64,000 nucleotides of DNA from Stigmatella aurantiaca DW4/3-1 (GTDB lineage Bacteria > Myxococcota > Myxococcia > Myxococcales > Myxococcaceae), in the NCBI RefSeq assembly GCF_000165485.1, contig NC_014623.1:2313501-2377500 (forward strand), written 5' to 3'. A model generated the notes under the pieces. The model did not search any database. It saw only the letters and a list, made by a program, of their open reading frames with translations, and was not told the DNA's origin. This document shows, piece by piece, positions 1 to 3,397 of this stretch (positions within the stretch are counted from its first letter, which is position 1; the number at the start of each line of letters is the position of its first letter). A program made the translations under genes and the position numbers.

Positions 1-2
1 AG

Positions 3-944
3 GCAGGGCGGCGGGGCGGCTTTGGGTGCGTCATCGGTGTTCGCCGATCAGGCGCCGAGGGGGCCTTGGTGAAGGCAGGCGCGGACGTGGAGGTGACGGA
101 GCTGTCCTCTGTGGGGGTGGAGGCGGACTTGGAGACGCGGCCCATGCGAGAGGTTCCCCTGGCGATGGAGCGGCGCGAGGAGTGGTTGCGGCGGATGACG
201 GGCCGGGTGGCCGTCTTCCTGGACTACGACGGCACGCTGACGCCCATCGTGCCCGTTCCGGAGGAGGCTTTTCTCGCAGACAGCATGCGGACCACCCTGG
301 AGGAACTGGCCCGGTACGTGCCCGTGGCCATCGTGAGCGGCAGGGATTTGCCCATGCTGAAGGGGTTCGTGAAGCTTCAGGGCTTGTACTTCGCCGGCAG
401 CCACGGCTTCGACATCGAGGGCCCGGGGGGGCGCCACTTCCAGCAAGAAGAGGGCAAGGCGCTGCTGCCCGAGCTGGACGCAGCAGAGCGGGAACTGACG
501 GAGGCGCTCGCGGGCATTCCGGGCGCGGGGGTGGAGCGCAAGCGCTTCAGTGTGGCGGTGCACTGGCGGCACGTGGAGGCCGCGCGGCTGCCAGAGGTGG
601 AACAGGCGGTGGCGGGGTGTCAGGCCCGGCACCCGAAGCTGACCCGGTCCGGGGGGAAAAAGGTGTTCGAACTCCGTCCCGGCATCGACTGGCACAAGGG
701 ACGCGCCGTGGAGTGGCTGCTGAAAGCCCTCGGGCTGGAGGGCGAGGGCGTGCTGCCGGTGTTCATTGGCGATGACCTCACGGACGAGGATGCCTTCCGG
801 ACATTGAAAGGGCGGGGGCTTGGGTTGGTGGTGAGGGGAGATGAAGAGCGGCCCACGGCGGCGGACTACGCGCTGCGGGACGTTGAAGAGGTGCGCCGCT
901 TCCTGGGGGTGCTCATCGCCCACGTGGGAGGCGCCAAGCGATGA
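3..944 (+). CDS. otsB: beta-phosphoglucomutase / trehalose-6-phosphate phosphatase fusion (5' truncated by window edge)
   Basis: The frame is open to the first complete codon (base 3), so the gene starts upstream of the window. The first ~35 visible residues (GGFGCVIGV, then a run ending [10 protein letters not shown]) look like the end of a beta-phosphoglucomutase-family HAD hydrolase, where this glycine-rich strand and A-G-A-D-V-V-V-x-D-L tail are typical. A complete trehalose-phosphatase domain follows: HAD motif [12 protein letters not shown] (about bases 214-246), motif II AIVSGRD, and the late motif [10 protein letters not shown] near bases 769-798. TTG (66) or GTG (69) could start a free-standing OtsB, but no ribosome binding site decides for them and the upstream homology argues for a fusion. 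Known family: OtsB hydrolyses trehalose-6-phosphate to trehalose; beta-PGM interconverts beta-Glc1P and Glc6P. The stop overlaps the next ATG (ATGA). Fusion inferred, OtsB assignment firm. Confidence 0.88.
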
Positions 945-3397
945 GGCCAGAGCACGGACTGTTCGCCTACGAGGGCTTCGAGCCCGAGCAGGAGAAGCTG
1001 CGCGAGGCGCTGTGCACGCTGGGCAACGGCTACTTCGCCACGCGAGGCGCGGCGCCGGAGGCCGAGGCGGACGAGGTGCACTACCCCGGAACATACCTGG
1101 CGGGAGGGTACAACCGGCTGAAGACAGAGCTGGCTGGCCGGGTGGTGGAGAACGAGGACCTGGTCAATCAGCCCAACTGGTTGTCCCTCTCGTTCCGCAT
1201 CGAGGACGGTGACTGGTTCAACGTGAGCACCGTGAAGGTGCTGGTGTACCGGCAAGTGCTCGACATGGCGCAGGGCCTGTTGCTGCGCACGGTGTCCTTC
1301 GAGGACTCAGGGGGACGGCGCACGCGGGTGGAGCAGCGGCGCTTCGTCCACATGCGGCACAAACACCTGGCGGGGCAGGAACTCGTGTTGGTGCCCGAGA
1401 ACTGGAGCGGGCGCGTGCAGGTGCGCTCCGCGCTGGATGGGCGGGTGATCAACGGCGGTGTGCCGCGCTACCGGCAGCTCAGCAGTCGGCACCTCCGGCT
1501 GGTGATGGCGAAGGAGGTGGATGCGGAGACGCTGCTGATGGAGGTGGAGACGGTGCAGTCCCGCCTGGGCGTGGCGGAGGCGGCCCGGACGCGTTTGTAC
1601 GTGGAGGGGCACCGGGCGGAGGCTCAGTGCCGCCTGATCCAGGAGGAGGGCTTGCTCGCGCACGAATTCACCGTGGAGGTGAAGGCGCACGAGCGGTTGG
1701 GGGTGGAGAAGGTGGTGGCGCTGTACTCGTCCAAGGATCCCGCGGTGTCCGAGGCGGCGATGGAGGCGCGGCACGCGGTGAAGTGGGCCCCGGCGCGCTT
1801 CGACGAGCTGGTGGCCACGCACGTCCAGGCCTGGACGCACTTGTGGAACCGGAGCGATCTGGACCTGGAGCTGGCGGAACCGGATGGGACCCACCGGGCG
1901 CTGCGGCTTCACATCTTCCATCTGCTTCAGACCGTGTCGCCGCACACCCTCGACCAGGACGCGGGGGTGCCCGCCCGGGGGTGGCATGGGGAGGCGTACC
2001 GGGGTCACATCTTCTGGGACGAGCTGTTCATCTTCCCGTTCCTCAACTTGAGGCTTCCCGCCTTGACGCGTGCCCTCTTGCGCTACCGCTTCCGGCGGTT
2101 GGGGCGGGCGCGCGAGGCCGCGCACGAGGCGGGCTTTCGGGGAGCGATGTTCCCCTGGCAGAGCGGCAGCGATGGCAGTGAAGAGAGTCCCCGCGTGCAC
2201 CTCAACCCGCGCTCTGGACGCTGGCTGCCGGACGAGACGTGGTTGCAGCGGCACATCAATGCCGCGGTGGCCTACAACATCTGGCAGTACTACCAGGCCA
2301 CGGACGACTCCGAGTTCCTGTACTTCCATGGCGCGGAGATGCTGCTGGAGCTGGCGCGCTTCTGGGCGAGCGTGGCCCAGTGGAACCCCTCGCTGCGGCG
2401 CTACGAAATCAAGAAGGTGATGGGGCCGGACGAGTACCACACGGGCTACCCGGATCAACCCGAACCCGGCCTGAACAACAACACCTATACGAACCTCATG
2501 GCGGTCTGGGTCCTGTGCAAGGGCTTGGAGGTGTTGCGGTTGATGCCCAAGGAGCGGCGGGAGGAACTCCTCGAGAGCCTGGAACTGGAGCCCTCGGAGC
2601 TGGCCCATTGGGAGGACGTGAGCCGGAAGATGCGGCTGGTGTTCCACGAGGACGGCGTCCTCAGCCAGTTCGAAGGCTACGAGCAGCTCCAGGAGTTCGA
2701 CTGGGAGGCGTACCGCGCGCGCTACGGGGACATCCAGCGGCTGGACCGCATCCTGGAGGCGGAAGGGGATTCGCCCAACCGCTACAAGCTGTCGAAGCAG
2801 GCGGATGTGTTGATGCTGTTCTACCTGTTCTCCTCCGAGGAGTTGAAAGAGCTCGTCGAGCGGCTGGGGTATCCCTTCGAGCTGGAGATGATCCCGAAGA
2901 CGGTCGACTACTACCTCCAGCGCACCTCTCATGGCTCGACGCTGAGTGGGGTGGTGCACTCGTGGGTGCTGGCCCGCAGTGACCGTCCCCGCTCGTGGAA
3001 GCTGTTCATCGAGGCGCTGCAGAGCGACATCTCGGATGTGCAAGGGGGGACGACCCAGGAGGGCATCCACCTGGGCGCCATGGCCGGGACGGTGGATCTC
3101 GTGCAGCGTGCTTACACGGGCATCGAGATGCGCGGAGACCGGTTGCACTTCAACCCGAACCTGCCGGAGGGCATGAGGCGGCTGAAGTTCTCGCTGCGCT
3201 ACCGCAAGCACCTGCTGGATGTGGAAATCACCCCCGAGACGCTGGTGCTCGTCAGCCGCTGGGACACCCAGGGGCCGCTGAAGGTGGCCGTTCGAGGGGA
3301 GCGCCACCTGCTGCGTCCCTCCGAGACGCGCCGGTTCCACCTCTCCCAGAAGCCCTCCTGGGAGGCGGAGGGTGCAGGCGTGAGCCCGCAGGGCTGA
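941..3397 (+). CDS. GH65 family trehalose/maltose phosphorylase or hydrolase
   Basis: An 818-residue cytosolic protein (no signal peptide) with the GH65 layout: N-terminal beta-sandwich beginning ALCTLGNGYFATRG, (alpha/alpha)6 barrel, and small C-terminal jelly roll. The general acid should be E498 in VMGPDEYHTGY, followed by the conserved LNNNTYTNLMA. The loop SHGSTLSGVVH (from H664) and GTTQEGIHLGAM lie where phosphorylases bind phosphate. GH65 enzymes split trehalose or maltose, usually by phosphorolysis to beta-Glc1P and glucose; a few members hydrolyse. Adjacency to a beta-PGM domain, which consumes beta-Glc1P, favours a phosphorylase, but the sequence alone does not settle substrate or mechanism. 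Start ATG overlaps the upstream stop by 4 bp, so it is translationally coupled. Mycobacterial OtsB1 is known as one polypeptide with PGM, OtsB and GH65-like parts; here the third part is a separate gene. Confidence 0.88.
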   Translation: MRPEHGLFAYEGFEPEQEKLREALCTLGNGYFATRGAAPEAEADEVHYPGTYLAGGYNRLKTELAGRVVENEDLVNQPNWLSLSFRIEDGDWFNVSTVKVLVYRQVLDMAQGLLLRTVSFEDSGGRRTRVEQRRFVHMRHKHLAGQELVLVPENWSGRVQVRSALDGRVINGGVPRYRQLSSRHLRLVMAKEVDAETLLMEVETVQSRLGVAEAARTRLYVEGHRAEAQCRLIQEEGLLAHEFTVEVKAHERLGVEKVVALYSSKDPAVSEAAMEARHAVKWAPARFDELVATHVQAWTHLWNRSDLDLELAEPDGTHRALRLHIFHLLQTVSPHTLDQDAGVPARGWHGEAYRGHIFWDELFIFPFLNLRLPALTRALLRYRFRRLGRAREAAHEAGFRGAMFPWQSGSDGSEESPRVHLNPRSGRWLPDETWLQRHINAAVAYNIWQYYQATDDSEFLYFHGAEMLLELARFWASVAQWNPSLRRYEIKKVMGPDEYHTGYPDQPEPGLNNNTYTNLMAVWVLCKGLEVLRLMPKERREELLESLELEPSELAHWEDVSRKMRLVFHEDGVLSQFEGYEQLQEFDWEAYRARYGDIQRLDRILEAEGDSPNRYKLSKQADVLMLFYLFSSEELKELVERLGYPFELEMIPKTVDYYLQRTSHGSTLSGVVHSWVLARSDRPRSWKLFIEALQSDISDVQGGTTQEGIHLGAMAGTVDLVQRAYTGIEMRGDRLHFNPNLPEGMRRLKFSLRYRKHLLDVEITPETLVLVSRWDTQGPLKVAVRGERHLLRPSETRRFHLSQKPSWEAEGAGVSPQG

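Follow-up and report, generated by a model that had tools for sequence, protein, structure and literature searches.

The DNA analysed here, hereafter the window, is a stretch of 64,000 nucleotides (G000:C1:2313501-2377500) within the 10.26-Mb genome of Stigmatella aurantiaca DW4/3-1, and it opens inside a two-gene locus predicted to act in trehalose-6-phosphate (T6P) metabolism. The first gene encodes a beta-phosphoglucomutase (beta-PGM)-like domain fused to a trehalose-6-phosphate phosphatase (TPP) domain, and the second encodes a GH65 protein (Table 1). Read directly in the sequence, frame 3 runs open from base 3 of the window to a TGA at 942-944, where the GH65 start codon overlaps the PGM-TPP stop. 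The two genes use different reading frames and encode two polypeptides, not one; from the 4-bp ATGA overlap, we infer that their translation is coupled.

Table 1. Features of the PGM-TPP/GH65 locus in window coordinates (L003 coordinate = window coordinate + 7000).
Feature	Position	Strand	Basis or remark
3' part of PGM-TPP gene	1..944	+	Gene start at window -633 (L003:6367); open frame, upstream without stop; PF02358/TIGR00685 and TIGR02009 over cut-off
End of beta-PGM domain and linker	3 to about 180	+	Part of PGM-TPP gene
TPP domain	about 195-910	+	PF02358/TIGR00685 over cut-off
GH65 alpha-glucoside phosphorylase, predicted T6P phosphorylase, 818 aa	941..3397	+	Pfam GH65 N, middle and C domains
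ATGA, GH65 start codon (ATG 941-943) overlapping PGM-TPP stop	941..944	+	Read in sequence

The original prediction for this DNA, a beta-PGM/OtsB fusion followed by a GH65 gene in a 4-bp overlap, with the visible N-terminal residues forming the tail of a beta-PGM, was borne out. Upstream of the window, the PGM-TPP frame continues in L003 with no intervening stop and encodes a full beta-PGM-like domain (TIGR02009). We place the likely start of this 525-aa protein at the ATG listed in Table 1, as all seven genomes compared have an ATG aligned with it and the frame of the closest relative (L134) is closed by a stop just 5' of it. Directly 5' of the start codon, RNAfold predicts a hairpin of -27 kcal/mol (L003:6321-6372, window -679 to -628). 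The hairpin overlaps the likely ribosome-binding site and is shared by three genomes of the genus but by neither of two sister genera; translational control is possible.

Both domains of the first protein scored above the cut-offs of their family models. In the 542-aa numbering of P0001, the HAD/beta-PGM family domain spans residues 33-239 (TIGR02009, 160.7 bits against a cut-off of 153.35) and the TPP domain residues 297-534 (TIGR00685, 169.8 bits against 68.05). The PGM catalytic residues (DxD, T, H, S, K, E, D) are all in place, and the closest solved chain is 8h5s, named beta-PGM (216 bits). The TPP motifs DYDGT, SGR, K, and GDDLTDE are also in place, and the closest solved chain to this domain is 5gvx, a TPP; we take both structures to be from M. 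tuberculosis. Across 67-68 loci, the TPP catalytic residues are invariant except for one Ser-to-Thr change, and thus the TPP domain is under constraint in the modules that carry it. Residues 89-179 of 5gvx, in the N-terminal part of this solved TPP, align to P0001 204-299 at the end of the PGM domain; this suggests an ancient PGM-TPP fusion, with a degenerate PGM as the N-terminal domain of 5gvx. At two Caballeronia loci (L106 and L118), a PGM domain fused to GH65 is without several catalytic residues (Lys, Glu-Asp) and may be inactive.

The GH65 protein, the only one of its family in the S. aurantiaca genome, has the N, middle, and C domains (catalytic domain E-value 2.2e-129 by Pfam). Its AlphaFold2 model reached a pLDDT of 89 from a 67-sequence alignment and 54 from five close sequences. 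The best Foldseek match of the model is 9lb6 from Weissella ceti (TM 0.90/0.95), and it also matches kojibiose phosphorylase 3wiq (Z 49). Phosphorylases of GH65 are recognized by a general acid Glu and a phosphate site of Lys, His, and two Ser/Thr; hydrolases lose the phosphate site and gain a general-base Glu (PMC8626586). By these criteria the protein is a phosphorylase and not a hydrolase, as E498 is in place as general acid and K619, H710, S666, and T667 as phosphate ligands. A trehalase or other hydrolase, considered as an identity for this protein, was ruled out by the intact phosphate-site residues.

The specificity of GH65 enzymes can be read at six positions (64, 392, 394, 402, 416, and 585 in CsKP numbering), where DQGQDE denotes T6P phosphorylase, TRIGPP trehalose phosphorylase, and EEAPxx kojibiose phosphorylase (De Beul et al., PMC8537180). 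The DQGQDE enzyme CaGP of Caldithrix abyssi (APF18594.1) was confirmed to form T6P from beta-glucose 1-phosphate (beta-Glc1P) and glucose 6-phosphate (G6P) (PMC8537180). In a MAFFT alignment, D64, Q392, G394, and E585 of the S. aurantiaca protein agree with the T6P-phosphorylase type. Position 416 is D when placed gap-free beside LQRH (D431, invariant in the clade) and E in the MAFFT alignment; counting the gap-free placement, five of the six residues agree. The protein is unlike the TRIGPP type at all six positions. Most of about 100 relatives read D, Q, G, Q, D, E, with position 402 varying among P, Q, and D.

On our GH65 tree (FastTree, local support only), the clade of the S. aurantiaca enzyme is sister, with full support, to the enzymes of W. 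ceti (9lb6) and L. plantarum. R386, R437, and R600 are common to this clade and the enzymes of lactic acid bacteria (LAB), are not found in other GH65 types, and may contact the 6-phosphate. The same order also has four GH65s of the trehalose-phosphorylase type (R392, P585, and, where aligned, T64), which form their own branch. Judged by these sequence features, the enzyme most likely acts on T6P rather than trehalose. This puts in doubt the earlier assignment of trehalose as its substrate; the original prediction had itself named a substrate other than trehalose as grounds for rejection, and T6P, as predicted here, is such a substrate. The nearest structures carry other names: the 9lb6/9lb7 entries are labelled "trehalose-6-phosphate hydrolase" and, in the title, "trehalose 6-phosphate phosphatase". 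By fold, phosphate site, and fingerprint, 9lb6 would be a T6P phosphorylase, and the entry labels look mistaken.

We propose that the two genes form a three-enzyme T6P module that would make trehalose from G6P without the T6P synthase OtsA, with T6P recycling as the reverse, a reading to which we give slightly better than even odds (probability about 0.52). The PGM domain would interconvert G6P and beta-Glc1P, and GH65 would reversibly combine beta-Glc1P and G6P into T6P and inorganic phosphate (Pi). The TPP domain would pull the reaction by hydrolysing T6P to trehalose and Pi, which would make the synthetic direction irreversible. The net reaction would be 2 G6P + H2O -> trehalose + 2 Pi, with neither UDP-glucose nor OtsA; with TPP inactive or absent, the same enzymes would recycle T6P to 2 G6P. 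In vitro, T6P synthesis is the strongly favoured direction for GH65 T6P phosphorylase (PMC13121652). We infer the substrate, direction, and physiological role of the module from its layout, the intact catalytic residues of all three parts, the phosphorylase-type site, the fingerprint, and the co-occurrence of the module with TPP in OtsA-less genomes. The futile cycle seen in the original prediction vanishes once T6P is taken as the GH65 substrate, since the three parts would then run from 2 G6P through T6P to trehalose, or from T6P to 2 G6P; the original prediction probably erred in both the GH65 substrate and the direction.

With T6P supplied by GH65, as proposed, the TPP of such a module would need no OtsA. 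We searched for OtsA (PF00982) in 58 module-bearing genomes, with 293 Pseudomonadales and 138 Nitrospirota genomes as whole-group background. OtsA was missing from 13 of the 58, and 10 of these 13 have a TPP, always a single one. Eight of the 10 TPPs are in a module read as PGM-TPP; that of D. alkaliphilus is encoded by the gene immediately preceding GH65, and that of M. orientalis by a 519-codon frame away from the module. A clear TPP is present in 22 of the Pseudomonadales, 20 of which have OtsA and no close module; the remaining two are OtsA-less, and it is these two that carry the module (Fisher p 0.004). Among the Nitrospirota, 56 have a TPP match and 51 of these have OtsA; four of the five OtsA-less genomes have the module, and the fifth TPP match is a 67-position fragment (Fisher p 0.0005 with the fragment as a counter-example). 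An intact TPP without OtsA was thus found only beside the module (2/2 Pseudomonadales, 4/4 Nitrospirota), making GH65 the likely source of the TPP substrate. Further OtsA-less modules, with one TPP each, occur in Desulfobulbus, Marinobacter, Oleiphilaceae, and Bipolaricaulota.

More tentatively, and at a little under even odds, we suggest that this is a natural nucleotide-sugar-independent trehalose route that replaces OtsA in several lineages, with mycobacterial OtsB1 as its one-protein version. Reviews give OtsAB, TreYZ, TreS, TreT, and TreP as the trehalose routes and treat T6P phosphorylase as a breakdown enzyme only (PMC12125463). Our literature search found no report of an OtsA-less trehalose route for Marinobacter or Nitrospira and no proposal of the synthetic direction in vivo.

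Several points weigh against synthesis by the module. The tested genomes share ancestry, so that each cannot be taken as independent evidence in the Fisher p-values; the weight of the OtsA test therefore lies in its repetition across lineages. Three genomes with PGM-GH65 (G207, G210, and G230) have neither OtsA nor TPP, and a T6P enzyme there would be without an obvious source or outlet; these are metagenome assemblies and may be incomplete. Fingerprint position 402 is P in the S. aurantiaca protein and its genus, where the T6P-phosphorylase type has Q. To our knowledge, no enzyme of this GH65 clade has been assayed. The PGM domain scored 97 bits against the specific beta-PGM equivalog model TIGR01990, below its cut-off of 189.4, so mutase activity is predicted but uncertified by that model. 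Mycobacterial OtsB1 has been reported to be without TPP activity or a mutant phenotype (PMC11046441). Finally, the S. aurantiaca genome has a fused OtsA-OtsB gene 53 kb upstream of the module and TreS elsewhere; thus, the module is not needed for synthesis there. In this organism it would provide either an additional, less costly way to T6P and trehalose or a branch that recycles T6P. Given OtsA-OtsB, TreS, and a second, divergent OtsA-like gene far from the module (G000:C1:3777514-3778905, 225 bits), conversion of T6P back to 2 G6P is plausible as well.

The alternative that survives best, which we consider unlikely, is that GH65 is a T6P phosphorylase working in the breakdown direction only. 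T6P and Pi would yield G6P and beta-Glc1P and finally 2 G6P, the co-transcribed TPP would be a competing exit, and the module would control the amount of T6P or the partition between storage and glycolysis. This would suit the source genome, where OtsA makes T6P, and the modules without TPP, which are mostly in genomes with OtsA and a separate TPP, as fits recycling; the L. lactis T6P phosphorylase is likewise catabolic (PMC12125463). However, breakdown alone leaves the TPP-bearing modules of OtsA-less genomes unexplained, as we found no other T6P source in them.

Slightly less likely still is that GH65 is a trehalose phosphorylase. TPP would then make trehalose, GH65 would split it to glucose and beta-Glc1P, and PGM would convert the latter to G6P, for a net T6P + H2O -> glucose + G6P. 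The chemistry is sound, and three steps would achieve what the TreC phosphotrehalase does in one; for maltose 6'-phosphate, MapP, maltose phosphorylase, and beta-PGM of Enterococcus faecalis provide a precedent (work cited in PMC8537180). A trehalose supply is available in the OtsA-less gammaproteobacteria, which carry the trehalose-making TreS (one also carries TreY/TreZ), and the three PGM-GH65 genomes with neither OtsA nor TPP would also fit. The fingerprint, however, is unlike that of the tested trehalose phosphorylase and largely agrees with that of T6P phosphorylase, and TPP would be without substrate in OtsA-less genomes despite its conserved catalytic residues. Moreover, six OtsA-less genomes (Nitrospirota G206, G208, G213, G600, and G616 and Bipolaricaulota G239) gave no match to a TreS model and therefore have no obvious trehalose source, in a search that did not extend to TreY, TreZ, and TreT genome-wide. 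Very improbable is a third alternative, that GH65 and the TPP-like domain act on another phosphorylated glucoside (other linkage or acceptor phosphate) by the same reverse phosphorolysis and dephosphorylation: GH65 specificities are diverse, with several subgroups left unassigned by De Beul et al. (PMC8537180), and position 402 varies in the relatives, but the TPP domain scores 100 bits above the trehalose-phosphatase equivalog cut-off and GH65 largely agrees with the T6P-phosphorylase fingerprint.

The PGM-TPP/GH65 architecture is a member of a widespread, little-studied family. We surveyed 80 loci, taking one genome per species, from Pseudomonadota, Myxococcota, Desulfobacterota, Nitrospirota, Actinomycetota, Bacteroidota, Planctomycetota, Campylobacterota, and others. 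The split layout, with PGM-TPP (or TPP) followed by GH65, accounts for 41 loci, a three-part fusion in a single protein for 11, a PGM-GH65 fusion without TPP for 16 (including L094, with its PGM match in another frame, and L107, with a TPP match downstream), and other or cut arrangements for 12. Three-part frames of 1323-1455 codons occur in Actinomycetota, Desulfobacterota, Campylobacterota, and an archaeal bin. On the GH65 tree, gain or loss of TPP requires six changes and full fusion at least two. From these counts and changes, the split layout is the ordinary one and full fusion a repeated variant. The original prediction had called the locus a split version of the mycobacterial OtsB1 architecture; the order of the parts stands, but "split version" is misleading, as the split form is the commonest and the full fusion a minority.

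Within the phylum, several related genera have the PGM-TPP/GH65 pair (76-95% identity) and others do not. At two loci of a sister genus, L016 (G093) and L017 (G091), no TPP separates PGM from GH65, and the GH65 is still 76-77% identical; the single TPP of G093 is located elsewhere, in one frame with OtsA. In the source's own genus, L019 (G099) has a three-part module that is only about 54% identical and branches far from its relatives, and it was likely acquired from elsewhere or is on a contaminating contig.

Comparison of neighbouring genes revealed little shared context beyond glycogen clusters in gammaproteobacteria; OtsA is near five loci and phosphoketolase near four. In OtsA-less gammaproteobacteria, the module is clustered with treS-maltokinase, treZ, and malQ-treY (Kineobactrum), with glgC, glgB, and malQ (an Oleiphilaceae bin), or with glgX, glgC, and malQ (G262), and trehalose would feed alpha-glucan synthesis in these clusters. 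A polyphosphate kinase 2 gene adjoins the module in one Nitrospirota genome. On Rhodococcus plasmids, the module is placed amid universal stress protein and hydrogenase genes or adjoins phosphoketolase. One such plasmid locus, L112 of Rhodococcus qingshengii, encodes a 1080-aa "trehalose-phosphatase" that is a TPP-GH65 protein without PGM; its neighbours (universal stress protein, wax ester synthase, and hydrogenase genes) resemble a hypoxia or dormancy regulon.

If synthesis by the module is correct, it would add a further trehalose route, one that uses no UDP-glucose and by our calculation saves one nucleoside triphosphate per trehalose, and it would explain why a T6P phosphatase is kept in bacteria without a T6P synthase. 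Mycobacterial OtsB1, described as a protein of unknown function, would also gain a testable role. The original prediction describes OtsB1 with these three parts in this order, and the reported length of the M. tuberculosis protein (Rv2006, 1327 aa) equals the sum of the parts; the S. aurantiaca locus differs from OtsB1, compared here by description only, in that GH65 is a separate gene with a 4-bp overlap.

Among characterized systems, the Lactococcus lactis T6P phosphorylase (EC 2.4.1.216) and the LAB enzymes (9lb6; L113 of L. plantarum) share the GH65 fold, phosphate site, and most fingerprint residues, and at L113 the GH65 gene adjoins pgmB, a beta-PGM partner. They differ in forming a sister branch (33% identity to 9lb6) and in having no TPP partner at the loci seen; that of L. 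lactis functions in trehalose use. Pairs of trehalose phosphorylase and beta-PGM (TRIGPP type, L026-L029) also have GH65 adjoining beta-PGM, but with about 27-30% identity, another fingerprint, a different tree branch, and no TPP at the loci. The E. faecalis MapP system likewise combines a disaccharide-phosphate phosphatase, a GH65 phosphorylase, and a beta-PGM; it reportedly handles maltose, not trehalose, and is purely catabolic after uptake by the phosphotransferase system. OtsA-OtsB synthesis shares the final TPP step and the product, but obtains its T6P from UDP-glucose and G6P with a GT20 synthase, whereas the module would obtain it from beta-Glc1P and G6P with a phosphorylase. There is also a parallel in chemistry in vitro: enzyme cocktails make T6P from beta-Glc1P and G6P without a T6P synthase (Taguchi 2020; PMC13121652), and that of Taguchi includes beta-PGM. 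These are laboratory pathways that reach beta-Glc1P via maltose phosphorylase and contain no TPP, and the module, if it acts as proposed, would be the natural counterpart of the one called new-to-nature in 2026 (PMC13121652).

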